A DNA stretch of 64,000 nt from Microbacterium sp. W4I4 (GTDB taxonomy: Bacteria; Actinomycetota; Actinomycetes; Actinomycetales; Microbacteriaceae). Made by a program: the position numbers and the translations under genes. Every line of letters begins with the position of its first letter. Within the stretch, counting starts at the first letter, position 1. Location: positions 1,798,001 through 1,862,000 of the forward strand of contig NZ_JAUSXT010000001.1 in assembly GCF_030816235.1 (NCBI RefSeq), written 5' to 3'. Shown here piece by piece: positions 12,967 through 31,837 of the stretch. A model generated the notes under the pieces. The model was not told where the DNA came from, did no database searches, and was given only the letters and a program-made list of their open reading frames with translations.

Positions 12967-13911
12967 TCACACGCCGGCGAACTTCAGGGCGCGCTTCGCG
13001 CGGGCGTTAAACGCGGCTTTCACGCGCACGGCCACGACGACGAGCGCCACGATCGTGATGACATACGGGGTGGTCAGAGCCAGCGAGGAGTTGACCCCGC
13101 CGAGAACCAGCCTGTCCGCCAGCGCATCGGCAGCACCGAAGATGGCGCAGGCGATGAGCGTGCGATACGGCCGACCCAGCCCGAAGGTCAGCGCAGCGAG
13201 AGCGATGAACCCGCGCGACGACGTCATGTTGGCGGTGAAGGATCCGACGGTCGCCATGGCAAGTTGGGCACCGGCAAGGCCGCACAGCAGTCCGGACAGC
13301 AGGATGGCGATGAACTTAACATTGAACACGTTGATACCCGCGGCGACCGCGGCGGGCTCGTCCTCGCCGACCGCCCGCAGGTGCACACCGTACCGGGTTC
13401 GGTAGAGCACATAGGCGTACAGGGGCACGCACAGGAAGGCCAGCCAGACGAGGATGGTCTGGTTGTTCAACGCGGCGCCGATCACGGGTATCTGCCCGAT
13501 CGGGCCCAGGTCGATCTTCGGAAGAAACGCTTTGACGTCTCCGGGCGTGACTCCAGCGTTGCCGTAGAGCACGATCAGAAGCAGCACGGTGATTCCCAGG
13601 GCCAGAAGGTTGATGCCGATGCCGACGACGATGAAGTCCGCCTTGAAGACGAGAGCCGCGATCGCGAATATCAGCGCCAGCAGGCCGGCCGCCCCCATCG
13701 CCGCCAGGATGCCGATCCAGGGACCCGAGAACGCACCGACCGCTACCGCGGTGAAGGCGCCGACGAGCATCATGCCTTCGAGGCCGATGTTGAGGATGTT
13801 CCCCATCTGTGTGAAGGCTCCGCCGACCGCCGCCAGCAGGATCGGAGCGGTCTTCATGAGGATCACCGCGAGGGTGCCCGCGGTGAGGACCTGCGCGAGG
13901 ATGTCGTTCAT
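12967..13911 (-). CDS. Nucleoside ABC transporter permease 2 (BPD_transp_2)
   Basis: A 314-residue integral membrane protein of the branched-chain/sugar permease family, the YufQ/NupC-like subunit of BMP-type nucleoside importers. Family signature segments are NILNIGLEGMMLVGAF near the N-terminus and RTRYGVHLRAVGEDEPAA in the cytoplasmic coupling loop, plus about eight hydrophobic segments. The ATG overlaps the stop of the fused ATPase-permease gene (ATGA), so the subunits are translationally coupled. The longer upstream frame is a shadow of that gene. Confidence 0.87.
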   Translation of the reverse strand: MNDILAQVLTAGTLAVILMKTAPILLAAVGGAFTQMGNILNIGLEGMMLVGAFTAVAVGAFSGPWIGILAAMGAAGLLALIFAIAALVFKADFIVVGIGINLLALGITVLLLIVLYGNAGVTPGDVKAFLPKIDLGPIGQIPVIGAALNNQTILVWLAFLCVPLYAYVLYRTRYGVHLRAVGEDEPAAVAAGINVFNVKFIAILLSGLLCGLAGAQLAMATVGSFTANMTSSRGFIALAALTFGLGRPYRTLIACAIFGAADALADRLVLGGVNSSLALTTPYVITIVALVVVAVRVKAAFNARAKRALKFAGV

Positions 13912-16700
13912 CGTGATTCCGCCTTGCTGGAGTGCACCGGTTCCGTGAGTGAGAGCCGCTTTCTCCGCCCCGGAAGCCGGACGACGAAAGTGGCGGTGAT
14001 CGCGATGATGATGATGCCCTGCAGGACATTGACTACGGGGAGCGGGACACCCACGGATTGGATGCCCGTGCCTCCGGCCATCATCGTCGCGTAGAACAGG
14101 GCCGCGATGAGCGACGCCCAAGGATTCAGTCGCGCCAGCAGCGCGACAGTGATCGCGAGGAAGGCGAATCCCGGGGAAAACTGCTGGATGAAGCGTCCGC
14201 CGTTCGGACCGATGACATACAGCGCACCGGCGAAACCCGCTGCAGCGCCCGAGAGCATGAGCACCTGCATCGACATCGCGCGCGTGGACACACCGGTGTA
14301 CTGCGCAAACCTGTTCATCTCGCCCATCTGCTTGACTTTCAGCCCCCAGATGCTTCGCGTGAGCACTAGCGCGAGCCCGATGGCGATCACGATCCCGATG
14401 ATCAGATCCGGCCCGAAGCCGTACATCGAGTCGAACATCGTGAGCCGGGACTCCTGAGGAATCTTGGGCGAGGCCACGATGCCGCCTTCGGGGTCCTTGA
14501 AGGGGCCCGTCACGAAGAAGTGAGTGATGAGCTTCGCGATCTCGGAGAGCAGCAGCGTCGCGACGATGATGTCGACCCGCCAGAAGGCATAGAGCGCACC
14601 GGGGACGAAGCCCCATGCGGCACCGGCCAGAGCTCCGACCACCAGGATGAGCAGCATGTGGAGCATCGGAGGCAGCCCGGTGATCGCGAATCCCGCGAAC
14701 GCGCCGAAGAATGCGCCGAAGTAGAGCTGTCCTTCGCCACCGATGTTGAAGAAGCCCGCACGGAAGGAGATGATCGTACCCGCCGCCATGATGGCGAGCG
14801 GGATGAACGTGGCGATGATGCTCGCCATTCCGAAAGGCGTCCGCCAACCGGAGGTGAAGAGCTCCCAGTACGCCGCGATCGGGTTCTGTCCGATCAGGAG
14901 GATGATCACGGCACCGAGGACGAGCGCGGCGAGAAGCGCACCGATGGGCTGTGTGGCGCCTTTGACGAGCGCGGTCCCGAGCTCAGTCAGCCTGCTCGGA
15001 ACCGGAGTCCTGAGCACCTGGCGCGCCGTTGCCGTAACGGATTGAGGAGCGAGAATGCTCGTCGTCTTGACCTCCTCCAGGACGATGTCGGCGCTGGGCT
15101 GTTCGGGCTCCGCTAGCGTCGCCCCAGTGGCGGCGAGTTCCGCAGCGCGTCGTGCGTGTTCGAGCTCCGCCTGAGCCAGTGAATCGGGGGTCGGCGCGAT
15201 TCCCGCCATAGCCAAACCGACGGCCACCTCCGACATGTTCTCCTGGGTGAACTCTGCGACGATCCCCCCTCGATAGATCACCAGCAGACGATCCGAGAGG
15301 CTCATCACCTCGTTCAGATCTGCCGAGAGCAGCAGCACTCCCGCACCCCCATCCCGCGCTCGCAGGATCGAGTTGTGCACGAACTCCATCGCTCCGACGT
15401 CGACACCGCGCGTGGGCTGGGAGACGAGCAGCAGCTGCGGCTCCGATGCGAACTCTCGGGCGATGATCACCTTCTGCATGTTGCCGCCGGACAGGGTGGC
15501 CACGGGAGTCTCGGTCGTCGCTCCCCGAATGTCGAACTTCGCGATCAGCGTGCGAGCGAAGTCCCGCATCGCTTTCATCGAGAGCCACCCGAAACGTGCG
15601 ATCGGCGCGTGCAGGTGAGTGCTGACCGCGTTCTCCGCAACGCTCAATGTCGGGGCCGCGCCCTCGTCGTGACGATCCTCGGGGATGTAGGCGAATCCAT
15701 TCGCCCGCCGCTGTGCGACCGACGCACGGGTCATTTCCTTGCCCGCGAAGGTCACCGTGCCCCGGGGCGGATTGTACATGCCGGCGATGGCTGCGGCGAG
15801 CTCCGTCTGTCCGTTGCCCTCGACTCCGGCGATTCCCACGATCTCCCCACGGCGCACGCTCAGGGAGAGATCGTTCACGACGATCGCGCCCCGCTGATCG
15901 ATCGCGTACAAGCCCTCGATGCGAAGCGCCTCGCCGGTGGGGTTCGGCGGAGTGTGCTGCACCCGCAGGAGCACCTCTCGCCCGACCATCAGCCGAGCGA
16001 TGTCGGTCTGGCTCAGTCCTTGCGCAGGCCGGGTGTCCACGACTCGACCGTCGCGGATGACGCTGATCTCGTCAGCGATCGAGAGTACTTCGCCGAGCTT
16101 GTGAGAGATGAAGACGACAGCACATCCTTGTGCCGCCAATTGGCGGACCACGACGAACATCTCCTCCGTCTCGGCCGGAGTGAGCACCGCCGTCGGCTCA
16201 TCAAGGATAAGAACTCTGGTGTCGTGCGAGAGCGCCTTGATGATCTCCACGCGCTGGCGCTGTCCGACGGAAAGGTCCTGAATTGTGTCCTGCGGGTTAA
16301 TCTGCAGCCCGAAGCGGGTGGCCAGTTCTTCGACCTTCTTCTCCATGGCACGCTGACTCAGTCGGCCCAGCCTGTTGCGGAGCTCCCTGCCCAGGAACAC
16401 GTTCGACGCGACCGAGAGCGAGGAGACGAGCTTGAAGTGCTGGTGCACCATCCCGATGCCGAGCGAGTTAGCACGGTTGGGATCGTTCATCACCACCGGC
16501 TCGCCATCGAAGATGATCGTTCCCGAGTCGGGCTGGAGATTTCCGGAGATCATGTTCATCAACGTCGTCTTGCCTGCACCGTTCTCGCCTACGATCGCGT
16601 GCACCCGCCCCGCCGTGATCGTGAGCGAGACGTCCTCGTTGGCCGTTTTCGATCCGAACGTCTTCGTGATGTTCCTGAGCTCAAGGATGCGAGCACTCAT
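13908..16700 (-). CDS. Fused nucleoside ABC importer: tandem ATPase plus permease 1
   Basis: One open frame of 930 residues carries what is normally two proteins. Residues 1-510 are a tandem ATPase of the RbsA/YufO type: Walker A GENGAGKTT, signature LSVGQRQRVE, Walker B VLILDEPTAVLTP, second half with LSGGNMQKV and LLLVSQPTRGVDVG. Residues about 515-600 form an Ala/Glu-rich hydrophilic linker. Residues about 605-915 are a permease with FRAGFFNIGGEGQLYFGA and about eight membrane segments. The second Walker A (GVEGNGQTE) lacks lysine, which is normal for this family. No stop or frameshift separates the parts. It is 72 bases downstream of the binding-lipoprotein gene and overlaps permease 2. 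Confidence 0.85.
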   Translation of the reverse strand: MSARILELRNITKTFGSKTANEDVSLTITAGRVHAIVGENGAGKTTLMNMISGNLQPDSGTIIFDGEPVVMNDPNRANSLGIGMVHQHFKLVSSLSVASNVFLGRELRNRLGRLSQRAMEKKVEELATRFGLQINPQDTIQDLSVGQRQRVEIIKALSHDTRVLILDEPTAVLTPAETEEMFVVVRQLAAQGCAVVFISHKLGEVLSIADEISVIRDGRVVDTRPAQGLSQTDIARLMVGREVLLRVQHTPPNPTGEALRIEGLYAIDQRGAIVVNDLSLSVRRGEIVGIAGVEGNGQTELAAAIAGMYNPPRGTVTFAGKEMTRASVAQRRANGFAYIPEDRHDEGAAPTLSVAENAVSTHLHAPIARFGWLSMKAMRDFARTLIAKFDIRGATTETPVATLSGGNMQKVIIAREFASEPQLLLVSQPTRGVDVGAMEFVHNSILRARDGGAGVLLLSADLNEVMSLSDRLLVIYRGGIVAEFTQENMSEVAVGLAMAGIAPTPDSLAQAELEHARRAAELAATGATLAEPEQPSADIVLEEVKTTSILAPQSVTATARQVLRTPVPSRLTELGTALVKGATQPIGALLAALVLGAVIILLIGQNPIAAYWELFTSGWRTPFGMASIIATFIPLAIMAAGTIISFRAGFFNIGGEGQLYFGAFFGAFAGFAITGLPPMLHMLLILVVGALAGAAWGFVPGALYAFWRVDIIVATLLLSEIAKLITHFFVTGPFKDPEGGIVASPKIPQESRLTMFDSMYGFGPDLIIGIVIAIGLALVLTRSIWGLKVKQMGEMNRFAQYTGVSTRAMSMQVLMLSGAAAGFAGALYVIGPNGGRFIQQFSPGFAFLAITVALLARLNPWASLIAALFYATMMAGGTGIQSVGVPLPVVNVLQGIIIIAITATFVVRLPGRRKRLSLTEPVHSSKAESR

Positions 16701-16771: not shown

Positions 16772-17815
16772 TCAGCCCAGCGTCGTGGGGACCGCGATGG
16801 ACCCGTCGACGACCTCCTGCTTGTACTTCTCGATCTGGTCGATGATCGACTGCGGCACGAGATCGCCGTTGCCCTCGAAGGTCAATCCGACGCCATCGTT
16901 CGCCAAGCCGAAGGATGTCGCCTCACCGTATTTGAGCGTGCCCTCTTGGGCCTGCGCGATCGCCGTCACGATGGTTCCGCCCGCGTTCTTGAGCATCGAA
17001 CCGAGCACGTGTCCGGGCTGAAGGTCGTTCTGGTTGATGTTCACACCGATCGCGTACTTGTTCGAGTCCTTCGCCGCCTGCAGCGAACCGATCGCCGATC
17101 CGCCCGATGGAACGTATACGACGTCGGCACCCTGGTCGTACATCGCCTTGGCCTGGTCGTATCCCTTCGCCGAATCCGTGAACGAGCCGACGTAGCTCAC
17201 CAAGACCTCGATGGTGGGATCGACGGCCTCGACGCCCGCTTCGAAACCGACCACGAAGTCATTGATGATGGCGACGTCCTGTCCACCGACGAGTCCGACT
17301 TTCTTGCTGCCCTCGGAAAGCGGGAACGCGTCGGTCTCGGTCGTTGCGAGCGCCGCGAGAACTCCTGCGAGGAAAGAGCCCTCGTTCTGCATATACGTGA
17401 TGGAAGCGACGTTGGGCGCGTCGACAACGGCGTCGTACAGGATGTAGTGCTGGTCCGGGAATTTGGGCGCATCCTCGGTGAGGATGTCGAACATGCTGAA
17501 TGTGCCCGTGACGATGACATCCCACTCGCCAGTGGAGACAGACTGCAGATTGGCCTTCCACTGAGCGGGGTTGTTCCCGTCAGCCTGGAGGGTGTTGGTC
17601 TCGTGACCATCACCTTCCAGCTTGTCCATACCGGACTGCGCGTCGTCGAAGAAGCCCTGGTCTCCAAGGGCGCCCGGCACAACGTGTGCGACGGAGATTT
17701 CGCCCGAGGCGCCGTCATCCGTTCCGCTAGGGGTTTCGGCGGGTCCGGTGCAAGCACTCAAGGTCACAACGAGCGCAGCCGCGGCCGCGACAGTGCTGAA
17801 TCGCGAGATCTTCAT
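16772..17815 (-). CDS. BMP-family nucleoside-binding lipoprotein
   Basis: A 347-residue substrate-binding lipoprotein of the Bmp/Med (PnrA-like) family. The signal peptide ends in a lipobox, VVTLSACTG, giving Cys22 as the lipidated residue. Family blocks include HVVPGALGDQGFFDDA and KKVGLVGGQDVAIINDFVVGF. VYVPSGGSAIGSLQAAKD and YAIGVNINQNDLQPG follow. Proteins of this family bind purine and pyrimidine nucleosides. AAAGGAG precedes the ATG. It supplies substrate to the downstream fused ATPase-permease; in this context 5'-deoxynucleosides are plausible ligands. Confidence 0.88.
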   Translation of the reverse strand: MKISRFSTVAAAAALVVTLSACTGPAETPSGTDDGASGEISVAHVVPGALGDQGFFDDAQSGMDKLEGDGHETNTLQADGNNPAQWKANLQSVSTGEWDVIVTGTFSMFDILTEDAPKFPDQHYILYDAVVDAPNVASITYMQNEGSFLAGVLAALATTETDAFPLSEGSKKVGLVGGQDVAIINDFVVGFEAGVEAVDPTIEVLVSYVGSFTDSAKGYDQAKAMYDQGADVVYVPSGGSAIGSLQAAKDSNKYAIGVNINQNDLQPGHVLGSMLKNAGGTIVTAIAQAQEGTLKYGEATSFGLANDGVGLTFEGNGDLVPQSIIDQIEKYKQEVVDGSIAVPTTLG

Positions 17816-17934
17816 GTCAACTCCTTTGTATTCATGTGGGGTTTACTGCGTGGTGGCGCTGCTCGCCGGCCCTCGGGGCGCTCGCACTGCGCAGCACCGC
17901 GAGGATCGGCGAAGGTATGCGAACGTCGCGTCGG

Positions 17935-18819
17935 TCAGTCCGAGGCGCCGTCCGAAAGGTCTAGGTACTGCCGGTGGGCATCCTCCGGGGTCGCGTTCGC
18001 GTGGACGATCGACTGCACGGCGAGCATCATGGCCTCCGGCGCTTCACGCTGGAAGATGTTGCGGCCCATGTCCACGCCGGCGGCTCCCTGATCGAGGGCC
18101 TTGTAGGCCATCGTGAGGGCATCGATCGCCGGCAGCTTCTTACCGCCGGCCATGATCACCGGCACCGGGCACCCGGCGGTGACCTCTTCGAATCCTTCGT
18201 CACAGAAGTACGTCTTCACGAGCTGGGCGCCCAGTTCTGCGATGATTCGCGTCGCGAGGCCCAGGTAGCGAGAATCGCGCACCAGTTCCTTGCCGACGGC
18301 GGTCACGCCGAGAACAGGGATGCCGATCCGCAGCCCGTCGTCGACGAGGGTGGTGAGGTTCTCGATCGACTGGGTCTCGTGCTCACTTCCGACGAATACT
18401 TGAACCGCGACGGCGGCCGCGTCGATGCGGGCCGCATCCTCCATACCCATCGCCAGTCGCTCATTTGAGAGGTCCTTCAGAATGGACGGTCCGCCGGAGG
18501 CGCGCACCACGAGCGCGTTGCGGTTGGATGCAGGCACAACGGAGCGGAGGATTCCGCGCGTGGCCATGAGCGCATCCGCGTGTGGCGCCAGGGGAACGAT
18601 GTTCAGGTCGACGCGCTCCAGGCCGGAGGTCGGGCCCTGAAAGTAGCCGTGGTCGAACGCGAGCATGACGGTCTTCCCGTCCGGACGGAAGATGCGAGAC
18701 AGCCTGTGCTGCATACCGTAGTCCAGTTGCGTCGCTCCCTTGACCGCCAGGGCAGGGGTCTCCTGAGCGATGCCGATGCCGTAGTCCTTCGCGGAGATGT
18801 TTCCTTCGAGATCAGCCAT
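17935..18819 (-). CDS. lsrF: LsrF-type thiolase (3-hydroxy-5-phosphonooxypentane-2,4-dione thiolase)
   Basis: A 294-residue DhnA-type TIM-barrel enzyme recognisably collinear with E. coli LsrF. Matching blocks are [58 protein letters not shown] (catalytic lysine region), [15 protein letters not shown] and [13 protein letters not shown]. LsrF moves the acetyl group of 3-hydroxy-5-phosphonooxypentane-2,4-dione to CoA, giving DHAP and acetyl-CoA. ATG at 18819 follows GAAGGAAA. No lsrK, lsrR, lsrG or lsrB is nearby; instead it sits with mtnA, an aldolase/dehydrogenase fusion and, divergently, mtnK. A role in 5-deoxypentose catabolism is therefore more likely than autoinducer-2 processing. A related DhnA aldolase activity is the alternative. 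Confidence 0.85.
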
Positions 18820-18869
18820 GATGATTTCCTTCGTTCGGGATGGGGTTGGTGCGTGCGAGCGATGAGCTA

Positions 18870-19247
18870 TCAGGCAGTGCTGCCGGATGCCGACTCGCGA
18901 GGGTTCCACGGTTCAGCGTGGGTGTCGCCCGGACTGGACGGCGACTTGATGAAGAGGAGTCGGAACGCGCTCCCGGTCTCATTGATCAGATAGTGGTGCT
19001 CGCCCGGCTCGCAGCGGTAGACGTCACCAGTGCGCATGGTGTGTCTGTACGCTCTCTCGATCCACAGCGTGCATTCGCCTTCGAGGGCGATGAATGTCTC
19101 ATCGCAGTGATTATGGAAATGGTTCTCCACCTCATCTCCCGGACGCAGCATCAGGACTCCGATATCGCTGCTCGAGCCGTTGACGAGGTATGCGGGGCCC
19201 CATTCCCCGTTGCGGTACTCGGGGTTCTCCGTCGATGCGTACTTCAC
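18870..19247 (-). CDS. Small cupin protein, possible phosphosugar isomerase
   Basis: A 125-residue single-domain cupin with both metal-binding motifs: [16 protein letters not shown] (His, His, Glu) and PGEHHYLIN (His). GTG start with GGGAGGCGAGG upstream. It lies between lsrF and the aldolase/dehydrogenase fusion. In the Lsr pathway an isomerase (LsrG) prepares the substrate of LsrF. LsrG has a different fold, but a cupin isomerase could serve the same step here. That role is inference; the fold and metal ligands are visible. Confidence 0.7.
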
Positions 19248-19277
19248 GTCCTCGCCTCCCTGTGTTCGGTCATCGGC

Positions 19278-21245
19278 TCAGATGACACGTTCGTTCCCGC
19301 CGTCGATGGGGACCTGAGCACCGGTGGTGCACGCGAAGGTGTCGTCGACCATGGCGCGTGCGAGTCTGGCGACCCCCGAGCTGGTCACTTCTACACGCAG
19401 GAGATTTCGACGCTTGTACTCGTCAACGCTCATGCCGTAGTGGTGCGCCCGTTTTGCCAGCAGTTCCGGAGTCCACAGGGCCGTATCGAAGACGGCATCC
19501 GGATGGATCATATTCACCCTGATTCCGCTGGCCGCCCATTCCAGGGCGGCGACACGGGACAGTTGAACCAGAGCGGACTTCGATGCCGAGTATGCGGCGG
19601 CTCCCGGCCCCGGCGCCCTGACGTTCTTGGAGGCGACCACCACGACCCGGCCACCGCCTGGCGCGAGGGCGAGCAGAGGCTGAGTGATCGCGAAGAGGTC
19701 GGCGACCGAGTTCACGTTGATGTCCATGGCACGCCGCCACGCGTTCATGTCGAGTTCTGCCAACTGCTGCGAGGGCGGGAAGATTCCGGCGGAGACCACC
19801 AGAATGTCCAGCCCGCCGAATGCGCGGACCACCTGCTCGATCGCGGCGCGCTGCTCGTCGCCACTGGTGACATCCACCTGAATGCCCAGCCACTCGGGGC
19901 CGTCGAATGCATCCACGATCTGCGGGTCGATGTCCCACCCGACCACGCAGGCGCCGGCATCGAGCATCTCTGCCGCTATCGCACGTCCGATCCCCGATGC
20001 CGCACCCGTGACCAGCGCGATGCGACCGGCAAGAGGCTTGTTCCGAAGCGCTCTCGCCAGCTTGTCCCGCTCCGCAGACCAGTGCTCCAGCTCGAAGACG
20101 TGCTGCGCATCGATCGGCTGGTAGCCGCCGAGATCCTCGGCGGCGGCGACGACGTCGACCGTGTGCAGGTAGATGTCCTGCGCGGCCTGCGCTTCGGATC
20201 CGGTGCGCCCTGCGGTGAGCAGTCCCAATTCTGCGTCGACGATCACGCGGGGTGCTGGGTCGTGCGCCGGAGTCTGCGTGCCTTGCGAGTGCTGCGCGTG
20301 GTAGCTGTCGTAATCGGCTGCGTACTGCGCGACGTCGCGTCCGCGCAGGGGTCGGTATCCGGTGAGGATGACATGGTCGGGCGTGATCGGCCCCCGGGAG
20401 ACCGCGGCCATCAGACTGTCGGATGCCAGCAGGTTCGCGGCCTGGTCGTCCCGGACGTTTCGCACGATCATGGGTCGGCCGGCGAAGTCGCTGAGCTGCT
20501 GCCGCAGTCGCGCACGGTCCGCGATGCTGCTCGCCGCCTGATGCACAGGCGCATCCGCTGGCCGATGGCGCTCCGCGATGTAGCGATCGGCGATCTCGAC
20601 GAGTTCGACGTGACGTTCCAGCGCCTGTTGCGGGGTATCGCCCACCGTGAACAGACCGTGGTTCACAATGACCAGCCCCCAGGCCTCAGCCCGCTGCGAG
20701 GCGTGCGCGTTCCAGGCGTCAAGACACGCAGCCGCCGCGACGGGTCCGGGCATCGTGTAATCGACGACGATGACTCTGCCTCCCAGCGCCTCCTGCACGA
20801 GACGCTTGCCGTCAGCGGAGTTCGTGAGCGTGAGGATCGCATCCGAGTGGGAATGCAGCACGGCCACATGCGGCAGAAGTGCGTGGACCAGGGACTCCAC
20901 CGATGCCGGAGGGGCTTCCGGGTCGAGGCACGCCATCGTGAGTTCCCTGGCGAGATCGTTGGCCGCCAGTTCGGTCGGGGGAAGCAGACGGCGGAGGCGG
21001 TCGAGCCGCAATGGCGTGAATCCGTCCGGGGAGATGGTTGCCATATCGTGGCCGCTGCCCTTGACAAGCAGCGCGGGGATCTCCTCCCCGGTGACGTCTG
21101 TCCACGTGAGCTTCACCGATGAGTTACCGCCCCCATGCAGAACCAGTCGGCTGTCGCGACCGATCGCACGGGAGGCTCTCGCGATCTCGGACAGCAGCGC
21201 GCTGCCGTCGCCATCGAGTCCCACTCTTGGGTTCGACAGTGTCAT
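19278..21245 (-). CDS. Bifunctional class II aldolase / short-chain dehydrogenase
   Basis: A 655-residue fusion. Residues 1-220 or so are a class II (zinc) aldolase/epimerase domain with GGGNSS near the N-terminus, Glu and His ligands in VESLVHALLP...LHSHSDA, and NHGLFTVGDT. After a central spacer, residues about 400-655 are a classical SDR: TGAASGIGRAI, SAGIFPPSQ, Ser in VVVVASKNV, catalytic YSASK, VNMIHPDAVFDTALW. The architecture is that of bifunctional rhamnulose-1-phosphate aldolase/lactaldehyde dehydrogenase relatives. Here, beside mtnA, mtnK and lsrF, it likely acts on 5-deoxyribulose 1-phosphate or 5-methylthioribulose 1-phosphate, by aldol cleavage, C4 oxidation or both. AGGAGG precedes the ATG. 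Confidence 0.85.
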   Translation of the reverse strand: MTLSNPRVGLDGDGSALLSEIARASRAIGRDSRLVLHGGGNSSVKLTWTDVTGEEIPALLVKGSGHDMATISPDGFTPLRLDRLRRLLPPTELAANDLARELTMACLDPEAPPASVESLVHALLPHVAVLHSHSDAILTLTNSADGKRLVQEALGGRVIVVDYTMPGPVAAAACLDAWNAHASQRAEAWGLVIVNHGLFTVGDTPQQALERHVELVEIADRYIAERHRPADAPVHQAASSIADRARLRQQLSDFAGRPMIVRNVRDDQAANLLASDSLMAAVSRGPITPDHVILTGYRPLRGRDVAQYAADYDSYHAQHSQGTQTPAHDPAPRVIVDAELGLLTAGRTGSEAQAAQDIYLHTVDVVAAAEDLGGYQPIDAQHVFELEHWSAERDKLARALRNKPLAGRIALVTGAASGIGRAIAAEMLDAGACVVGWDIDPQIVDAFDGPEWLGIQVDVTSGDEQRAAIEQVVRAFGGLDILVVSAGIFPPSQQLAELDMNAWRRAMDINVNSVADLFAITQPLLALAPGGGRVVVVASKNVRAPGPGAAAYSASKSALVQLSRVAALEWAASGIRVNMIHPDAVFDTALWTPELLAKRAHHYGMSVDEYKRRNLLRVEVTSSGVARLARAMVDDTFACTTGAQVPIDGGNERVI

Positions 21246-21246
21246 C

Positions 21247-21759
21247 TCACGCCTCCTGTTCATGCGACACGCAGATCGTCCCGTTCGAGATCTCCTGCAG
21301 TTCGCAGCCCGGCGTCAGGTACTCGATGCGCCCGGCCACCTCCGGGTAGGCGGTTTGAAGAGGGACCCGGCATCCGATGTGGAATCCCTCGGGCGTGTAC
21401 TGCGGGGCCAGAGTCGTTCCCACCAGGGTCCAGTCTCCGAGGGAGGACACCCCCTGCCAGCACCCGGCAGGCGCGACGAACTGCGGACGCTGACCGGAGC
21501 GCAGGTCCATGCCCAGCACCGGTTGCTCGACGGTGCCGTCGGGGTGCAGCACGAGCATCTGCAGCGCGGCTCCGCCGTACCAGTGCCAGATCTCCGCGGA
21601 ATCGAGCGCGTGCAATGCAGAGACGTCGTCGCCGGAGGTGAGGTAGTAGATCGCGCCCGAGTACGCGTTCTCGAACGTGCTGCGGAACATCCCCCCTTCT
21701 ACGGGAAGGCGCTCGAGGCCCAGCATCTCGATCACGTCGTCGGCTCTGAGATCACGCAT
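21247..21759 (-). CDS. Cupin_5 (DUF985) protein
   Basis: A 170-residue protein with the DUF985/Cupin_5 pattern: LGLERLPVEGGMFRSTF, IYYLTSGDDVSALHAL, EIWHWYGGAALQMLVL, FVAPAGCWQGVSS and EYLTPGCE. Members are small beta-barrels of unknown biochemical role. Its ATG overlaps the stop of the nucleoside hydrolase gene by 8 bases, and its stop is one base from the aldolase start, so it is made together with them. A sugar epimerase or isomerase role is conceivable but unsupported. Confidence 0.75.
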   Translation of the reverse strand: MRDLRADDVIEMLGLERLPVEGGMFRSTFENAYSGAIYYLTSGDDVSALHALDSAEIWHWYGGAALQMLVLHPDGTVEQPVLGMDLRSGQRPQFVAPAGCWQGVSSLGDWTLVGTTLAPQYTPEGFHIGCRVPLQTAYPEVAGRIEYLTPGCELQEISNGTICVSHEQEA

Positions 21760-22732
21760 TGTCTCTCCCTGGAATTGTGGCGAAGTCGTGGATCAGTGCG
21801 CCCACGATGAGGCGTCGCACGGCATCGCGATCCACGTCGGATACGAACGTGTGCGCTGTGCCGTGGGCAGCCGCAGGGTCCCCCCAGACGGAGGCGCGGC
21901 CCGACTCGTCCCAGTGCACGGCGGCCGGCAGGCGCTCGACCCTGCGGATGAGGGCCGGGTCGAGGAAGACGGCGGCGGCGATCGAATCCCACACCGTGAA
22001 GGCTCGATCACCCAGACCGTAGGAACGCGTGACGAAGTCCGAGTAGAACGCGGTGGCGTCATGGATGAATCGTGCCTGCGGTGAGCCGTTTCGCGCATGT
22101 TCTTCGAGCAGCGCATAGGGGACGAGGAACGTGCCCCCGATATCCATTCCCACCCAGGTGATCGGACCCTCGGCGCGTGAGACGATCTCGGCCGCCTCCG
22201 CATCGCTGTTCATATTCGGATCGCCCACGGCCAGATAGTTCTGATACCCAGCCACGCCCGAGGCCGCCTGCCTGCGAGCGCCCATGCCGCCCATGATCAC
22301 GACAGATCTGAAGCGCGTGAGAACCGTGGGGTCCACGCGCAGGGCATCAGCGACATTGCGCACGCAGCCAAGCGTCAGCAACTCGACCTCGCCCGGCCGC
22401 TCATGAGCGATGCGCAGGATCTGTTCGCTTGCCGGCTCCGCAGAGAACGCCGCGTTCTCCGGTGTGAGTCCAAGTTCACCGAGGCCGTCTGACCCGTGCA
22501 CGAAGTCGGCGTACTGCTGGTCGTCGCCCGCAGCACGTCCGATGGCGACCGGCACGTCCGCCCGGTTCGTGAGCTCCAGGATGTACCGTGCGTTCGATGC
22601 CGCGTCGTGCACCGAGCAGTTTCCGAAACTGCTGGTCACCGCGACGACGTCGATATCAGCACGGCTGAGCAGTACCAGTAGTGCCAGTGCGTCGTCGACC
22701 CCTGTGTCGGTGTCGATGATGATGCTGCGCAT
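21752..22732 (-). CDS. Nucleoside hydrolase of the mtnA operon
   Basis: A 326-residue nucleoside hydrolase with DTDTGVDD at residues 7-14, GNCSVHDAASNARYILEL, LTLGCVRNVADAL, VIMGG and AVGDPNMNSDAEAAEIV; WDSIAAAVFLDPAL lies near the C-terminal active-site region. It is clearly different from the other three hydrolases in the window. Directly between mtnA and the cupin/aldolase genes, its likely substrate is 5'-deoxyadenosine, 5'-methylthioadenosine or a related 5'-deoxynucleoside, releasing the 5-deoxypentose for MtnK. Substrate is inferred from context. Confidence 0.85.
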   Translation of the reverse strand: MRSIIIDTDTGVDDALALLVLLSRADIDVVAVTSSFGNCSVHDAASNARYILELTNRADVPVAIGRAAGDDQQYADFVHGSDGLGELGLTPENAAFSAEPASEQILRIAHERPGEVELLTLGCVRNVADALRVDPTVLTRFRSVVIMGGMGARRQAASGVAGYQNYLAVGDPNMNSDAEAAEIVSRAEGPITWVGMDIGGTFLVPYALLEEHARNGSPQARFIHDATAFYSDFVTRSYGLGDRAFTVWDSIAAAVFLDPALIRRVERLPAAVHWDESGRASVWGDPAAAHGTAHTFVSDVDRDAVRRLIVGALIHDFATIPGRDNA

Positions 22733-22738
22733 GAGCCC

Positions 22739-23746
22739 TTATCCGATCTGTGAAGTGTCGAGAGAATCACCGCGATCGAAGCGCACGACACGGCTCTCCG
22801 TGACGATCGCGGTGATCAGGTGATGGGGAGTGACGTCGAAAGCCGGGTTCAGCGTCTGCGTTCCCACGGGAGCGGTCTGCCTGGTGCCCCAGTGGGTGAC
22901 CTCGTCCGACCCGCGATCTTCGATCTCGATCTCTGCGCCCGATGCGGTGGCCGTGTCGATCGTCGACTCAGGGGCGACAACGATGAAGGGAATGCCGGCG
23001 TGCTTCGCGGCCAGCGCCAGCGAGAACGAGCCGATCTTGTTGGCCGTGTCTCCGTTGGCGACGATACGGTCGGCCCCAATCAGCACGGCGTCCGCCTTCC
23101 CGCGGCTGAGCAGGAATGGACCCGCAGAGTCGATCGTGAGTTTGAACGGTGCGCCCATACGCGAGAGCTCCCAGGCAGTGAGGCGGGAGCCCTGGAGCAG
23201 CGGTCTGGTTTCCAAGGGGATGACCTCCTCGAGCCAGCCCTGCTCGTGAACGGTCTGGATGACGCCGAGCGCCGTGCCGCGCTCGACAGCGGCGAGGCCT
23301 CCGGTGTTGCAGATCGTCATGACGCGCAGCTTCGCGTAGGGAACCAGCTCGCGCAGGAGATCAGCGCCGTTGCGTCCCATGTCCGTGCAAGCGGCGATGT
23401 CCTCGTCCCTGATTCGCAGAGCCTCCTCAAGGACGGCTTCCGCTCCGTCGGAGAGCTTCGACAGAGCACGGTCGACACCCCAGGAGAGGTTGACCGCCGT
23501 TGGACGGGCTTCGCGAAGCTCTGCGGCCAGACGGCGAACGGACTGCGGGTCTGCACACTGGTCAGCGAGCTGCGCCACTCCCATCGCCCCTGCGACGCCG
23601 AGCGCGGGTGCGCCGCGCACCGCGAGGGCCTGAATCGCCTCGATGACAGACGCGGGTGTCTCCAGCAGGCGAGTGGTCACCGTAGTCGGCAAGAGGTTCT
23701 GATCGATGATCTCGATCGCGCCGTCCACCCAGTCGATTGTTCGCAT
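22739..23746 (-). CDS. mtnA: S-methyl-5-thioribose-1-phosphate isomerase (MtnA/DrdI type)
   Basis: A 335-residue aldose-ketose isomerase of the eIF2B-like family. Key motifs are LAVRGAPALGVAGA, the catalytic cysteine in MTICNTGGLA and the catalytic aspartate in IGADRIVANGDTANKIGS; it ends with NPAFDVTPHHLI. It converts methylthioribose 1-phosphate, or 5-deoxyribose 1-phosphate in deoxyribose disposal pathways, to the ribulose form. ATG at 23746 follows GGAGATGG. No mtnB, mtnC, mtnD or mtnX is present, so the classical methionine salvage route is not encoded here. The partner kinase MtnK is divergent. Confidence 0.88.
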   Translation of the reverse strand: MRTIDWVDGAIEIIDQNLLPTTVTTRLLETPASVIEAIQALAVRGAPALGVAGAMGVAQLADQCADPQSVRRLAAELREARPTAVNLSWGVDRALSKLSDGAEAVLEEALRIRDEDIAACTDMGRNGADLLRELVPYAKLRVMTICNTGGLAAVERGTALGVIQTVHEQGWLEEVIPLETRPLLQGSRLTAWELSRMGAPFKLTIDSAGPFLLSRGKADAVLIGADRIVANGDTANKIGSFSLALAAKHAGIPFIVVAPESTIDTATASGAEIEIEDRGSDEVTHWGTRQTAPVGTQTLNPAFDVTPHHLITAIVTESRVVRFDRGDSLDTSQIG

Positions 23747-23767
23747 TCCATCTCCAGTGATGATCAT

Positions 23768-23780
23768 GTTGACTTACAAC
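23768..23780. promoter_or_regulatory. Putative GntR operator upstream of mtnA
   Basis: GTTGACTTACAAC lies 22 bases upstream of mtnA and matches GTTGTCTTACAAC in the divergent mtnK-gntR region at 12 of 13 positions. Downstream bases CGTTATCAACAC extend the similarity. The intergenic stretch 23747-23949 holds no gene and is noticeably AT-richer than its surroundings. Confidence 0.55.
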
Positions 23781-23949
23781 TCGTTATCAACACGCATAAC
23801 TATGGGTTACCACCTGGACCAATGTCAACTCCCGAATAGCAACCATCATGAGGGTGCTTGGGAGGACGGCGGACAGATAGCTCGCGCGCACGTGCGCGCG
23901 AGCGACACCCGCCGCACGCTCAGCTCCCCGCCACGCGGGAGGAACGACC

Positions 23950-24672
23950 TCAGATGCTGCGGACGACGAAGAAGGCGTAGCGGCCTTCGATGAAGTATGT
24001 GCGGGAGTACAGGACGAGTTCTCCCGAGGAATCCCTGTGCATCTGGCTCAGCAAGAGGAAGAGTCGATGAGACGTCGCACCCGGACCCCATCCGACGTAA
24101 CCGGATTCCACGGCGTGCAGTTCTGCCACCGCGGTGGTGGGCGCTCGATTCAACGTCTCGCGTGCAAAGTGGAACAGCGATCCGTCGACGTCGTCAACAT
24201 CGAACTCCTCTGGCAGCAAACTCGCGGGAACCAAGTCGTAGGAGTAGGCCAGAACCTCGCCGTCCGCCAGTATGGTGCGGCGGATCTCCAGTACTGACGT
24301 GTCTCCGGGCACGTCCATCCGGTCGGCCTCTTCGGGCAGGACCTCACGGATGAGCCGGCTCGCGAAGACGACTTCGGGATTGCGCCCCGTCGCGCGGATC
24401 GATTCGGTGATGGAGCTCAAACGCTCGAGCCCCGTGCGCACCGTCGGCTTGTCCACGACGAACGTGCCCACCCCGTGAGTCGTCTGTACCAGACCGAGCA
24501 CGGCGAGCTCGCGGATAGCTGCGCGGACCGTGGGCCGCGAGACCTCAAACCGTGCACTGAGCTCATTCTCGGGCGGAAGCTTCGACCCTGCCGCGAAATC
24601 GCCTGACGCGATCGATGAACGCAGCTCTTGCGTGACCTTGGCTACAAGTGAGCCCGCTCGCGACTTGCCCAT
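23950..24672 (-). CDS. GntR-family regulator, UTRA type, of the mtnK/mtnA cluster
   Basis: A 240-residue regulator with a GntR winged helix (SKLPPENELSARFEVSRPTVRAAIRELAVLGLVQTTHGVGTFVV in two parts, about 28-75) and a UTRA domain (about 90-240: VLEIRRTILADGEVLAYSYDLVPASLL, ending YSRTYFIEGRYAFFVV). The start is uncertain between ATG 24672 and GTG 24687. It is transcribed away from mtnK and toward mtnA, with a shared motif ahead of both. It is thus the likely local repressor, relieved by a 5-deoxypentose phosphate or nucleoside; the effector is inference. Confidence 0.85.
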   Translation of the reverse strand: MGKSRAGSLVAKVTQELRSSIASGDFAAGSKLPPENELSARFEVSRPTVRAAIRELAVLGLVQTTHGVGTFVVDKPTVRTGLERLSSITESIRATGRNPEVVFASRLIREVLPEEADRMDVPGDTSVLEIRRTILADGEVLAYSYDLVPASLLPEEFDVDDVDGSLFHFARETLNRAPTTAVAELHAVESGYVGWGPGATSHRLFLLLSQMHRDSSGELVLYSRTYFIEGRYAFFVVRSI

Positions 24673-24786
24673 ATGGATCCGCTTCACTCCAAAGCTCTGC
24701 GACCCCTCGAATGCGGGCCTCTGAGTGACCTGTTCCTCGACGTCACAACATTGACAACTACTGTTGAGCTATCTTACGCTACGGGT

Positions 24787-24810
24787 GTTGTCTTACAACT
24801 GTGACAACAC
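24787..24810. promoter_or_regulatory. Putative GntR operator in the gntR-mtnK divergent region
   Basis: GTTGTCTTACAAC (24787-24799) is a perfect 5-bp inverted repeat with a 3-base centre. GTTGTC also pairs with GACAAC ten bases further on, followed by CAC. A related TTGACAACTACTGTTGA lies at about 24750. The tight cluster of GTTG/CAAC words between divergent genes is typical of GntR autoregulation. Confidence 0.55.
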
Positions 24811-24918
24811 GGTTACAAGAACCCTGTTCCACTCCTCCCCGAGTATTCCTGATGCTCACGGGAACCAGGCTGACGATCATTGATGATCGTCGTTCGATCA
24901 CCAGAGAGGTTGACAAGA

Positions 24919-26232
24919 ATGGGACACAACAGTCGCGAAGATTACGAGATCCTCGACGTGGACTCCGTCGCCGACTACCTGCGCAGCCGACCAGCACTCG
25001 CCGAGCGCATCGATGCCGACCAACTCGAGGACATCGCCGAGATCGGCGATGGAAACCTAAACCTGGTCTTCCTCACCCATGATCGGTCCGGACGCGGACT
25101 GTGCCTGAAGCAGGCCCTGCCGTATGTGCGGATGACCGGTGACAGCTGGCCGATGACGCCCGAACGCGCACGATTCGAGGTCGACTCGCTGCGTCTGCAT
25201 GGGAAACTCGCGCCGTCCACCGTGTGCGAGGTCGTCGATTACGACGCGGACCGGTACCTGATCGCCCTGGAAGATCTGAGCGATCACACAGTATGGCGCG
25301 CTGCGCTCAACAACGGGATCATTCATCAAGGGGCCGCCAAGGCGGTGGGTCAGTACATCGCGGCCGTCGCATTCGGGACCTCCGCTCTGGGAATGGACCG
25401 ACATGTCCTCGCCGCCGTGCAGGCGAGGTCTCTGAACCCCGAGTTGTGCCAGATCACCGAGGACTTGGTGTTCACCGAGCCGTCGGTCGACAGCGGCAGA
25501 AATGGAACGATCCCCGCCAACCACGCGGATCTGCGCGAGCTCGCCGCTGACGAGGAGTTCGTCTCAGCGATGGGCCGCGCGAAGTGGAAGTTTATGACGC
25601 AGGCGGAAGCGCTGATTCACGGCGACCTGCACACCGGCTCGGTCATGGTGCGAAGTGCCAAGGGCTCCACGACCGACGACAGCGTCAAGGTCTTCGACTC
25701 CGAGTTCGCGTTCTACGGCCCCGTCGGCTTCGATCACGGGCTTCTCTGGGCGAATTTCGTCTTCGCCGCCGCTCGAAGCGTCGCTCTCGGTGAGGACGCT
25801 CGGGCCGATCAGATCCTGTCGTTCGTCGGCGAGTCCTGGCATGCCTTCGAGAACGAGATGCGCGCCCTCTGGCCCGGACGAATCGATCCCCGGGTCTGGC
25901 GCGAGTGCTTTCTGGAAGAGCGCATCGTCACGTGGCAAGAGGATTCCTGGCTGTTCGCGGCCGGCGAGATGTCCCGTCGCGTCGTCGGGGCGGCGAAGAC
26001 CTCCGACATCGAGTCTCTTCCCGAGGATCTTCGAGAGGGCGCTGTCCGCGGCGTTCTCAACGCGACCCGACAGGTGGTTCGTGTCTACCGGCAGAACAGC
26101 ACGCCGGAATCCTTCACGAAGATCGTCGGCGATGCGCTTCGCGAGGCGCGCACGACGACTCAGCGTGGCGAGGATGTCGAGCCCGCCGCGGTGCAGGACA
26201 CATCTGCATCAATCGCCGGCCTTCATTCATGA
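24919..26232 (+). CDS. mtnK: S-methyl-5-thioribose kinase (MtnK/DrdK type)
   Basis: A 437-residue kinase of the APH-like fold in the MtnK family, phosphorylating 5-methylthioribose or 5-deoxyribose at C1. Characteristic blocks are IGDGNLNLVFLTHD near the N-terminus, LKQALPYVR (ATP-site lysine), the catalytic loop HGDLHTGSV and the metal-binding DSEFAFYGPVGFD. EERIVTWQEDSW follows. Length is close to known MtnK proteins. ATG at 24919 follows AGAGAGG. It is divergent from gntR-mtnA and overlaps the following oxidoreductase gene. The lack of other methionine salvage genes points to sugar disposal rather than methionine recovery. Confidence 0.87.
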   Translation: MGHNSREDYEILDVDSVADYLRSRPALAERIDADQLEDIAEIGDGNLNLVFLTHDRSGRGLCLKQALPYVRMTGDSWPMTPERARFEVDSLRLHGKLAPSTVCEVVDYDADRYLIALEDLSDHTVWRAALNNGIIHQGAAKAVGQYIAAVAFGTSALGMDRHVLAAVQARSLNPELCQITEDLVFTEPSVDSGRNGTIPANHADLRELAADEEFVSAMGRAKWKFMTQAEALIHGDLHTGSVMVRSAKGSTTDDSVKVFDSEFAFYGPVGFDHGLLWANFVFAAARSVALGEDARADQILSFVGESWHAFENEMRALWPGRIDPRVWRECFLEERIVTWQEDSWLFAAGEMSRRVVGAAKTSDIESLPEDLREGAVRGVLNATRQVVRVYRQNSTPESFTKIVGDALREARTTTQRGEDVEPAAVQDTSASIAGLHS

Positions 26233-27266
26233 TGACGTCCGCGAACGTTGTACCGGTGTTCATGGGCTCCGGTCTCATCGCTCACAGTCATGCCCGAGCC
26301 CTCGTCGAACTGGGCCACCGCCCCGCCGTCGTCTGGAGTCCCCGCGCCGATAGCCGGGACCGATTCGCCAGAGCATGGGGCGCCGTCTCCGCACCGTCGA
26401 TCGAGGCGGCGATGGACACGGCAGGAGCAACGCACGTGCACATCTGCACGACACCGATGAACCATAATGAACCCATTCGAGCTGCGGCGGCGCGCGCACT
26501 GACCATCGTCAGCGAGAAGCCCCTCGCCCCTACCGGGGCTCTTGCGCAGGACGCCTTCGATGCCGTGCAGGGTACCCCGACAGAGGCATGGTTGAACTTT
26601 AACCGCCGAATGGATGAGGGCATCCAGCTTCTGAGGTCGATCATGGCTAAGGGCACAATCGGCACAGCCGTCTCGGTCAACGGCCACTATCGCCAACAGT
26701 GGAACGCCACCCCGACCGGGCTGGATTGGAGACTTGATCCGAAGCAAGTCGGTCCGTCGCGCACAATCACCGAGATCGGCTCTCACTGGCTTGACCTGGC
26801 CGCGTTCGTGCTGGGCGCACGCATCACGGCCGCATCGGGCGTGCTCGGCTATGGTGGGCCGCGGGAGTATGTCACCGACACGGATCGTGGAATGGTGAAT
26901 CCGCCCAACGATGACTTCTTCGCCAGCCTGCTGACGTTCGAATCCGGTGCCGTGGGGCAGGTGTACGGCACTCAACTCGCTCACGGAGCGTTCGACGAGA
27001 TTGAACTGCGGATCGACGCGACGCGCGGCAGTGCCGTCTGGTCATCCGAGCATCCCAACCTGCTGAGATTCGGCAACAAGACGGAGGGGATGCGGACGGT
27101 AGGCATCGACTCGCCGACACGGTCGCTCAGCGCGAGCATCTCCGCGATCTATCAGGGAACGGCGCCCGAGCAGGGTGTCGCCACATTCTTGGATGGTGTG
27201 AACAATGCTCGGGCCATCGATGCTGTCCTGGCATCCGCGCGCACGAGGGCGTGGGTGGACGTATGA
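26229..27266 (+). CDS. Gfo/Idh/MocA-family oxidoreductase in the mtnK operon
   Basis: A 345-residue NAD(P)-dependent sugar dehydrogenase-like protein. The nucleotide-binding strand reads VVPVFMGSGLIAHSHARAL, a variant of the usual GxGxxG. EKPLAP is the typical EKP motif, and EIGSHWLDLAAFVLG carries the active-site histidine. ATG overlaps the mtnK stop (ATGATGA), so the two are coupled. It may be an alternative enzyme for oxidising the 5-deoxypentose or its phosphate; the exact reaction is unknown. The unusual GSGLIAH loop deserves note. Confidence 0.78.
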   Translation: MMTSANVVPVFMGSGLIAHSHARALVELGHRPAVVWSPRADSRDRFARAWGAVSAPSIEAAMDTAGATHVHICTTPMNHNEPIRAAAARALTIVSEKPLAPTGALAQDAFDAVQGTPTEAWLNFNRRMDEGIQLLRSIMAKGTIGTAVSVNGHYRQQWNATPTGLDWRLDPKQVGPSRTITEIGSHWLDLAAFVLGARITAASGVLGYGGPREYVTDTDRGMVNPPNDDFFASLLTFESGAVGQVYGTQLAHGAFDEIELRIDATRGSAVWSSEHPNLLRFGNKTEGMRTVGIDSPTRSLSASISAIYQGTAPEQGVATFLDGVNNARAIDAVLASARTRAWVDV

Positions 27267-27533
27267 CGCGGTCATTTTGATTGCACTCGGCCATCAGGTT
27301 GGTAGCAGATGACTAATGGGTGGTCGTTCTCCGAGTCTGCTGTGGCAACGGACGCGTCCGGGAGAAGCTTGGCTCTCCGCGCCGCGCGCCGAGCTGTCGA
27401 GAGCGCGTGGTATGACCTCAAGATGAGGCAATCATCGGGAGTCCAAGCGTGAACAAGTTTGAGCAGGTGATGAGTCGAACATTTTGGGCTGCCGGGCCGC
27501 CGACACCCGGCTTCGACGCGTGGTCTACGCCGC

Positions 27534-28031
27534 ATGCGGGAAAGGCAGCCGGCGGAGTTCGTCACTCCAACGGAGAATGAGCAGAGTATGCGGCACGTGA
27601 GTGCACCGATCGTGGCTGCCGCGGATAGCCCGTTGGTCGGGCGGGTGTCCGTGCTCGATGCCGAACGGTCAGAGTCTGGGATGCTGAGCGGAGCATCCGT
27701 CGCGCTGAGCACTGCACGGTCAGAGGCGATGAGCGCTCTCGACGTGACCCAGTGGTTGAGCGAACTGCGACACACCACCGAGTACGCATGCTCTCTGCGA
27801 ACCGTCCCCGCCCCCGCTATTAACTCCCTCATCGAGCTGCATGAGATGGCGATCCGACGCGTCGTGCCGGAGCTGCCCGTGCCGCCGGGTTCTGAGGTCG
27901 TGAGGATCCAGCAGCAGAAGTTGGCAGCAGATCTCGCTGCTCTCAAGCGCCTGCAGGTGCAGCCAGAGGTCGTCGATGTGGCCGCCCCTACTGTCACACC
28001 CGCGGAGTCGGGTCCTTCGATCTCCCGGTGA
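27534..28031 (+). pseudogene. Zeta-toxin-like gene fragment
   Basis: An open frame of 165 codons matching the C-terminal half of the zeta-like protein at 1030-2028 (from RQPAEFVTP to ESGPSISR). The P-loop, HPRY and EGEFRTP blocks are absent, so no kinase activity is possible. The frame stays open, probably because the duplication is moderately recent. An eight-residue stretch (QQGVSVFD in copy 1) is missing. Confidence 0.8.
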
Positions 28032-28139
28032 GTCGATCGCGCATTCTGGCGCCGTCCGGATAGCTGCCGATCCTTAGTGGGCGGGGGCTGGGCAGTGCCG
28101 CGTCGTGGAATACCGGACTGAGCGCCAGCGAGGGAGGAT

Positions 28140-28200
28140 ATGCCGCGAAAGCGCGGAACGGACCAGCACTCGGTCCACTATCCTCTTGCAGCCGGCGGTG
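28140..28200 (+). pseudogene. 5' remnant of a gene downstream of zeta (copy 2)
   Basis: Same start as the remnant at 2138 (MPRKRGTDQHSVHYPLAAGG, preceded by GGGAGG). The frame stays open far beyond 28200, but that extension runs antisense to the glutaredoxin-like and partition genes and is not coding. Only the first 20 codons are shared between the copies. Confidence 0.45.
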
Positions 28201-28226
28201 CCGTCAACACGGGCATCCCACTCCGG

Positions 28227-31745: not shown

Positions 31746-31837
31746 TGGCGGAGACGGAGGGATTTGAACCCTCGGTCCCCTTGCGAGGACTCCACCTTAG
31801 CAGGGTGGTGCACTAGGCCGAACTATGCGACGTCTCC
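31746..31837 (-). tRNA. tRNA-Ser (anticodon GCT)
   Basis: A 92-base tRNA on the minus strand, from GGAGACG (5' acceptor) to CGTCTCC-GCCA (3'), with encoded CCA. It has a T-arm GGTTCAAATCC, an extended variable arm typical of serine tRNAs, and anticodon GCT (complement at 31799-31801) in CCTGCTAAGG. It reads AGC/AGU codons. Its 3' end faces the integrase gene and is the presumed attachment site of the island. Confidence 0.95.

Follow-up and report, generated by a model that had tools for sequence, protein, structure and literature searches.

LsrF-Type Thiolase Genes Linked to mtnK and mtnA in Microbacterium sp. W4I4 and Other Bacteria: A Proposed Thiolytic Branch of 5-Deoxypentose Breakdown

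Introduction

We analyzed a stretch of 64,000 nucleotides from Microbacterium sp. W4I4 (hereafter the window; contig positions 1798001–1862000 of a 3.84 Mb genome on one contig), in which genes for a methylthioribose kinase (MtnK) and a methylthioribose/5-deoxyribose-1-phosphate isomerase (MtnA) stand together with a gene for LsrF, a member of the 3-hydroxy-5-phosphonooxypentane-2,4-dione (P-HPD) thiolase family otherwise linked to autoinducer-2 (AI-2) catabolism. The LsrF trees presented below show that this protein was recruited at least twice into an MtnK/MtnA context, and we regard it as highly probable that LsrF serves the breakdown of 5-deoxypentoses in some way. The more specific proposal, to which we give slightly less than an even chance, is a thiolytic 5-deoxypentose branch via P-HPD, which would have arisen on two or more occasions by capturing LsrF and an isomerase from operons with LsrK-type kinases. 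We describe the genes and their families, their operon-like spacing, their recurrence and the operator-like sites around them, and then weigh the pathway that they may encode.

Results and Discussion

The Gene Cluster

The genes at the center of the analysis are the following; scores are profile scores against curated cut-offs where two values are given.

24919–26232, plus strand: mtnK, methylthioribose kinase family (TIGR01767, 335.3 bits vs 275)
23950–24687, minus strand: GntR/UTRA regulator between mtnA and mtnK (PF00392 and PF07702)
22739–23767, minus strand: mtnA, methylthioribose/5-deoxyribose-1-phosphate isomerase (TIGR00512, 367.2 bits vs 279)
21752–22732, minus strand: NH1, nucleoside hydrolase, putative 5'-deoxynucleoside hydrolase (PF01156; Asp replaces Glu in the AEAN motif)
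21247–21759, minus strand: Cupin_5 (DUF985) protein (PF06172), its gene overlapping that of NH1
19278–21245, minus strand: aldSDR, RhaEW-like fusion of a class II aldolase and a short-chain dehydrogenase/reductase (SDR) (PF00596 and PF13561)
18870–19247, minus strand: Cupin_2 protein, LsrF partner and putative isomerase (PF07883)
17935–18819, minus strand: lsrF, P-HPD thiolase family (NF006081, 457.6 bits vs 297)

An earlier note made from the letters of this DNA had placed MtnK, MtnA, a nucleoside hydrolase, an aldolase/SDR fusion, a cupin and LsrF together, and all of them are present at 17.9–26.2 kb. Its inventory needs two amendments: Two cupins, each from a different family, are encoded instead of one, and the operon extends to position 11931. 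The minus-strand run comprises 10 close-set genes, beginning with mtnA at 23767 and ending with another nucleoside hydrolase gene at 11931, with intergenic gaps of −8 to 119 bp over its whole length and of −8 to +50 bp within the mtnA-to-LsrF part, and is treated here as a single operon. LsrF, MtnA and MtnK all score above curated NCBIfam cut-offs; MtnA is the sole PF01008 match in the genome, and the likelier start of its gene is 23746, with GGAG upstream. LsrF has Lys202, which we take to be the active-site lysine, and the DHGYF, TRG, AGGKK and VDMGRN motifs in common with E. coli LsrF. The arrangement goes beyond chance because the larger part of it is seen again in other genomes.

Recurrence and Origins of the LsrF Linkage

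We surveyed the best 80 of at least 577 confirmed MtnK stretches with 10-kb flanks, some of them on short contigs of metagenome-assembled genomes. LsrF lies in the flanks of six: L007, L008, L009 and L013 from Actinomycetota, L012 and L020 from Chloroflexota. The fusion aldSDR was found at 13 of the 80 loci, and LsrF accompanies it at 6 of these 13 and at none of the 67 loci that have no aldSDR (Fisher p 5.7e-6, for loci picked by similarity and hence not independent). In the actinobacterial clusters the gene order is (lone class II aldolase)–LsrF–cupin–aldSDR–GntR, followed by divergent MtnA–sugar ABC–MtnK; in L013 the cupin is missing from between LsrF and aldSDR, and MtnA lies beyond the ABC genes. 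The GntR regulators of LsrF-linked relatives are 39–64% identical to that of the window.

Beyond these flanks, 10 of 37 MtnK-locus genomes searched whole (the L031 genome left out) encode LsrF, six of them as the linked copy. The remaining four carry it outside the MtnK locus: G563 (L095), G571 (L096, L097), G579 (L098) and G587 (L099), with L095 showing lone aldolase–LsrF–cupin–aldSDR on a 7.6-kb contig. A sample of 198 genomes from the order of the window's genome, to which Timonella also belongs, contains MtnK in three, namely the window's genome, G172 and G080; G172 has the full cluster (L121), its LsrF being identical to Timonella senegalensis LsrF P0043 (first five residues not compared), and G080 (L123) has a lone aldolase-like match and no LsrF within the 20 kb seen. 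In a Chloroflexota class sample (177 genomes, class of G573), MtnK occurs in 8 genomes, LsrF in 12 and both in 6, where they are adjacent (Fisher p 6.2e-7, relatedness ignored; G573 and G565 were known before sampling); the MtnK loci lacking LsrF are L119 and L120. The survey for lsrF with mtnA/mtnK and without lsrK that had been suggested in the earlier note thus finds the linkage in several Actinomycetota and Chloroflexota, with at least two origins.

These origins are apparent from an LsrF tree of 27 rows with groups named from gene context, from which the near copies L090 and L091, L118 (which occupies the site of L020) and L121 were left out. The six actinobacterial MtnK-context rows, L095 counted in, group together (98/96), and the six Chloroflexota MtnK-context rows have a clade of their own (99/98). 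Closest to each clade are LsrK-context rows from its own phylum (93/95 with one row in Actinomycetota, 93/91 with four in Chloroflexota; these groupings are not starred). A single origin of MtnK-linked LsrF was rejected by the approximately unbiased test with p-AU 0.0002 for 27 rows and 0.006 for 19 rows.

As a separate observation, RuBisCO-like protein genes lie near two MtnK clusters (L014 11586–14630; L020 107–1198), that of L014 beside split transketolase genes; they may mark another fate of the ketose phosphate.

Operator-Like Sites

The palindrome GTTGTC-N-GACAAC was first noticed in L008 and L013 and then searched for in a choice of 21 loci totaling 377,056 bases. These hold 10 exact copies and 20 with at most one mismatch, for which 20 first-order shuffles gave expectations of 0 and 0.45; the observed counts include the L008 and L013 sites that gave the pattern. 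Copies flank the GntR gene, and the palindrome may be the binding site of its product. At L018, L022, L026 and L027 mtnA is preceded by one copy and a lone class II aldolase gene, across GntR, by the other; L008 and L033 have copies in front of aldSDR and mtnA, aldSDR of L008 heading an aldSDR–cupin–LsrF series. In Chloroflexota the palindrome stands about 105–130 bp upstream of LsrF, with one mismatch in L012 and L109 and two in L112 and L020; L020 also has it before mtnA with two mismatches, and L111 and L113 have no palindrome of that form. Pattern matching yields two putative operators in the window:

24787–24799, no strand assigned: putative operator GTTGTCTTACAAC, one mismatch to GTTGTCNGACAAC, between GntR and mtnK
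23768–23780, no strand assigned: putative operator with two mismatches, directly upstream of mtnA

Proposed Reaction Sequence

Every reaction of the following sequence, above all the oxidation, is predicted from gene content and protein families. The BMP-type ABC importer would take up a 5'-deoxynucleoside (5'-deoxyadenosine or a compound like 5'-methylthioadenosine (MTA)), from which NH1 would release 5-deoxyribose or 5-methylthioribose. Successive action of MtnK and MtnA would then lead to 5-deoxyribulose 1-phosphate, which the SDR half of aldSDR would oxidize with NAD+ at C4 (or C3), giving P-HPD or an isomer. Cupin_2 would isomerize or epimerize the oxidized sugar phosphate, and in the last step LsrF would use coenzyme A (CoA) to release dihydroxyacetone phosphate (DHAP) and acetyl-CoA, which are the LsrF products given in the pertinent passages of PMC7828210. 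The aldolase half of aldSDR would provide a second exit to DHAP and acetaldehyde or acetate, as in the DHAP shunt. Formula reasoning bears out the earlier statement that 5-deoxyribulose 1-phosphate oxidized at C4 is P-HPD. The accompanying claim of a difference from the DHAP shunt goes too far: The catalytic residues of the aldolase domain are present, so that both exits may operate. Methylthioribose would, as part of the proposed branch, yield methylthioacetyl-CoA. For an importing and degrading operon with SDR oxidation, cupin isomerization and LsrF thiolysis as the whole explanation, we see the chances as even.

The aldSDR Fusion as Candidate Oxidant

The aldSDR protein scores narrowly below the NF006196 cut-off (824.6 vs 831) and well under that of the RhaD fusion model TIGR02632 (372.6 vs 567.75). 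Three genes of the genome match PF00596: aldSDR, a RhaEW and an AraD-type epimerase. The RhaEW is a second aldolase/SDR fusion about 4 kb to the right of the window (L100 7822–9879; TIGR02632 994.4 vs 567.75), which sits apart from aldSDR on a long branch of the aldSDR tree. This tree has two deep groups, each mixing LsrF-linked and unlinked members. The likeness to RhaEW lies in the fusion of a class II aldolase with an SDR, NAD+-linked in RhaEW itself, whereas the window's aldSDR differs in its tree position and profile score and in that no rha gene was recognized in its cluster. With NAD+, RhaEW converts rhamnulose 1-phosphate to DHAP and lactate; neither product was seen without NAD+, from which its authors concluded that the dehydrogenase domain is needed for aldolase activity (PMC3870299). 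An oxidation that precedes cleavage in such fusions would fit this NAD+ dependence, too.

Among dehydrogenases, only the SDR half of aldSDR was recognized in every LsrF–MtnK cluster with enough contig. The idea that it acts as the C4 oxidant is favored by the presence of aldSDR at all six LsrF-linked loci of the 80 and disfavored by the lack of an LsrF-specific residue (see below). Position 130 (Leu vs Gln in L033 and L037) separates actinobacterial members only, and a specificity signature tied to LsrF and spanning both phyla was not found. No stand-alone class II aldolase of the Ald2/DrdA type is encoded in the window's cluster, where PF00596 occurs only in the SDR fusion. Six clusters (L007, L008, L009, L020, L095 and L121) have a separate class II aldolase as well, by which the fusion could be freed for another job; the window is without one. 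The Gfo/Idh/MocA oxidoreductase encoded at 26229–27266 on the plus strand (PF22725/PF02894/PF01408), whose gene overlaps mtnK, had been named as an alternative oxidant; having no half-length relative at any of the 80 MtnK loci, it was dropped as a general oxidant.

LsrF and Its Isomerase-Like Neighbors

According to its neighbors, LsrF occurs in three settings (L099 and L110 left out): (a) with MtnK/MtnA/aldSDR, (b) with an LsrK-type kinase and (c) with a GlpD-like dehydrogenase and an FGGY kinase. Setting (b) comprises L087, L097 and five Chloroflexota loci (L108, L114–L117); six of its seven kinases, including all five from Chloroflexota, pass the AI-2 kinase cut-off (575–626 vs 528). Setting (c) comprises L086, L088–L091, L096 and L098, where the FGGY kinase is of the xylulokinase kind, a sugar ABC importer is present and aldSDR occurs in 3 of 7; it would follow the same phosphorylate–oxidize–cleave logic as the proposed pathway.

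In Chloroflexota, an Rpe-like epimerase adjoins LsrF at 11 of 11 loci of settings (a) and (b), and the epimerase tree divides along the same line. In Actinomycetota, Cupin_2 adjoins LsrF in setting (a) and in the setting (b) operon L097, whose Cupin_2 is 38% identical to that of the window in alignment. LsrF thus retains an isomerase-like partner characteristic of the phylum even where the genes upstream differ, as expected if the intermediate handled by LsrF is identical. For the suggestion of a cupin acting as an LsrG-like isomerase, the relative in L097 supports Cupin_2 as the LsrF partner; no such support exists for Cupin_5, which has no half-length relative at any of the 80 MtnK loci and was set aside as a general pathway member. 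The Cupin_2 model has a pLDDT of 93.6; a structure search returned generic cupin matches, the top PDB entries including cupin phosphomannose isomerases, and gave no firm function. A SnoaL-like protein, encoded after MtnK in all six Chloroflexota LsrF clusters (L012 6278–6637; L020, L109, L111–L113), is an extra isomerase candidate.

Importer, Nucleoside Hydrolases and the Likely Substrate

Radical S-adenosylmethionine enzymes commonly leave 5'-deoxyadenosine. The distal part of the operon encodes a full BMP/PnrA-type importer set (PF02608, PF00005, PF02653) and a second hydrolase:

16772–17815, minus strand: BMP/PnrA-type binding lipoprotein (PF02608, 190.9 bits)
13908–16700, minus strand: ABC ATPase fused to a permease (two PF00005 stretches and PF02653 in a single 930-aa frame)
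12967–13911, minus strand: second ABC permease (PF02653)
11931–12929, minus strand: NH2, nucleoside hydrolase, AEAN motif with Glu (PF01156, 268 bits)

This importer and the nucleoside hydrolases point to imported nucleosides as the substrate. Four hydrolase genes lie in the window (3968–5017, 7283–8218, 11931–12929 and 21752–22732). Motif comparison shows that NH1 has Asp in its AEAN motif and the other three Glu, the residue that binds the 5'-hydroxyl in the Crithidia nucleoside hydrolase. Asp stands at this position in 8 of 9 hydrolases from eight MtnK loci (L028–L032, L042, L045 and one copy in L043), the only Glu case being the other L043 copy. The Asp of NH1 fits a 5'-deoxynucleoside substrate. 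No MTA/S-adenosylhomocysteine nucleosidase exceeds the cut-off in the genome; the best match (36.2 vs 73.8 bits) is a DeoD-type phosphorylase.

Weighing the Thiolytic Route against Other Explanations

A number of observations weigh against a thiolytic route. Comparison of aldSDR members across both phyla, with the partial L012 row left out, revealed no residue common to all LsrF-linked and absent from all unlinked ones; the catalytic motifs are intact in both domains, in linked and unlinked members alike; and 7 of the 13 MtnK loci with aldSDR have no LsrF in their flanks. Setting these three points against those in its favor, we put the route to acetyl-CoA at about one in two. In addition, the relative RhaEW is known to act as an aldolase plus aldehyde dehydrogenase. 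L088–L091 contain LsrF, GlpD-like and FGGY genes with no aldSDR nearby, and the kinase of L097, the nearest actinobacterial setting, is under the AI-2 kinase cut-off (457 vs 528). An Actinomycetes class sample (394 genomes) has MtnK in 15 genomes (13 over the cut-off) and LsrF in 7, both only in the window's genome, and lends no co-occurrence support beyond it. The palindrome count of the window taken by itself is not above chance (4 found vs 2.34 expected), so that operator evidence from the window alone is not significant. Finally, LuxS is encoded in the genome (contig 1201562–1201996), though no LsrK-type kinase exceeds the cut-off, which leaves room for an AI-2 role of LsrF.

One alternative is that the operon runs only the DHAP shunt with a RhaEW-type aldSDR, forming DHAP and acetaldehyde that goes on to acetate: LsrF and the cupin would then clear P-HPD arising as a side product when the SDR oxidizes uncleaved sugar phosphate. 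The intact aldolase and SDR motifs, the RhaEW precedent (passages of PMC3870299 cited above) and the MtnK–aldSDR loci that have no LsrF agree with this explanation, as does the fact that the aldSDR operon occupies the operator slot held by the lone class II aldolase in L018, L022, L026 and L027. However, LsrF entered such clusters on at least two occasions and has stayed with partners of similar kinds, and the separate class II aldolase already present in six clusters makes aldSDR plus LsrF look like more than a spare, which is why we consider a shunt-only operon rather unlikely. LsrF could alternatively process AI-2 in its phosphorylated form, phospho-4,5-dihydroxy-2,3-pentanedione (phospho-DPD), made by way of the cell's own LuxS and an unlinked kinase, its position in the operon being a regulatory convenience; its family membership, the LuxS gene and its relatives beside LsrK-type kinases elsewhere would be in keeping with this. 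The cluster encodes no LsrK and the genome none over the cut-off (best 135.5 vs 528); the control for this negative is silent, since 0 of 14 control genomes pass the AI-2 kinase model, which does match in Chloroflexota loci. Moreover, MtnK phosphorylates the anomeric hydroxyl and phospho-DPD needs the primary one, the importer belongs to the BMP type, in L007 the sugar-binding protein gave a weak match to RbsB and none to an LsrB model at E 1e-10, and LsrF or its operon has operator-like sites in common with mtnA in two phyla, all of which renders an AI-2 role improbable.

Membership in the DeoC/LacD-type aldolase family and the conserved lysine would allow LsrF to act as a class I aldolase that cleaves 5-deoxyribulose 1-phosphate to DHAP and acetaldehyde. 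We find this very improbable, as another aldolase domain is present in the LsrF–MtnK clusters seen with enough contig and the LsrF motifs match the AI-2 thiolase. Degradation of ordinary ribonucleosides via ribose 1-phosphate and ribulose 1-phosphate to DHAP and glycolaldehyde has its parallel in halophilic archaea, which use a ribulose-1-phosphate route of that type; NCBIfam contains a ribulose-1-phosphate aldolase model, and the window holds four nucleoside hydrolases. Yet this reading is hardly credible given that MtnK and MtnA exceed the methylthioribose cut-offs, that two PfkB-family genes could serve free ribose and that NH1 differs from the window's other three hydrolases by its Asp.

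Relation to Known Systems and Significance

The window locus, under the proposed thiolytic reading, is best classed as a variant of the DHAP shunt (DrdK–DrdI–DrdA; MtnK–MtnA–Ald2), with which it has a kinase, an isomerase and a class II aldolase in common and from which it differs by the aldolase–SDR fusion with cupin and LsrF and by a nucleoside-type importer and hydrolases. E. coli strains grow on exogenous 5'-deoxynucleosides via this shunt, as reported in parts of PMC6079011, PMC10986504 and PMC12632272, and in air turn the acetaldehyde into ethanol, according to the relevant part of PMC10986504, whereas LsrF of the window would give acetyl-CoA. Lsr-type AI-2 catabolism (LsrK–LsrG–LsrF) resembles the locus in its LsrF family and an isomerase-like neighbor, and the same end products are predicted; the window differs in its entry via MtnK/MtnA, and profile scans matched no LsrK, LsrR, LsrG or LsrB among the operon products. 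With the methionine salvage pathway the locus has MtnK and MtnA in common, but no mtnB/C/D/W/X match was found among the cluster proteins scanned, the genome-wide check being confined to PF00596.

A link of LsrF to the use of 5-deoxyribose or methylthioribose was not found in the open-licence papers searched, and the word LsrF is absent from the main text of PMC6079011, on 5-deoxyribose, and PMC6302742, a salvage review. As far as we have seen, the LsrF arm, its at least two origins and the nucleoside-importer form are new, the upstream steps being known. If true, a thiolytic exit would retain the two carbons in acetyl-CoA, with no reactive aldehyde formed. In these bacteria, an AI-2-processing annotation would then not indicate turnover of a quorum signal, and LsrF annotations from beyond the enteric group would have to be reconsidered.

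The Surrounding Region

To the left of the operon lie two of the hydrolase genes and two PfkB-family (PF00294), ribokinase-like genes (3033–3971 and 8969–9895; ribokinase by eye), which gives the wider region the look of an island for nucleoside use. The hydrolase genes at 3968 and 11931 resemble each other in DNA (69–87% over stretches). A phosphorylase-superfamily gene (PF01048) at about 9858–10830 has an apparent frameshift, its similarity switching frame by eye, and appears to be a pseudogene or a sequence error. Direct repeats at 1472–2201 and 27499–28203, which are 26.0 kb apart and 88–96% identical, flank the nucleoside region, the left one lying in and just past a Zeta_toxin-family gene. 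A Phage_integrase-family open reading frame (30575–31726) adjoins tRNA-Ser (31746–31837) and is, together with the repeats, among the signs of a genomic island.

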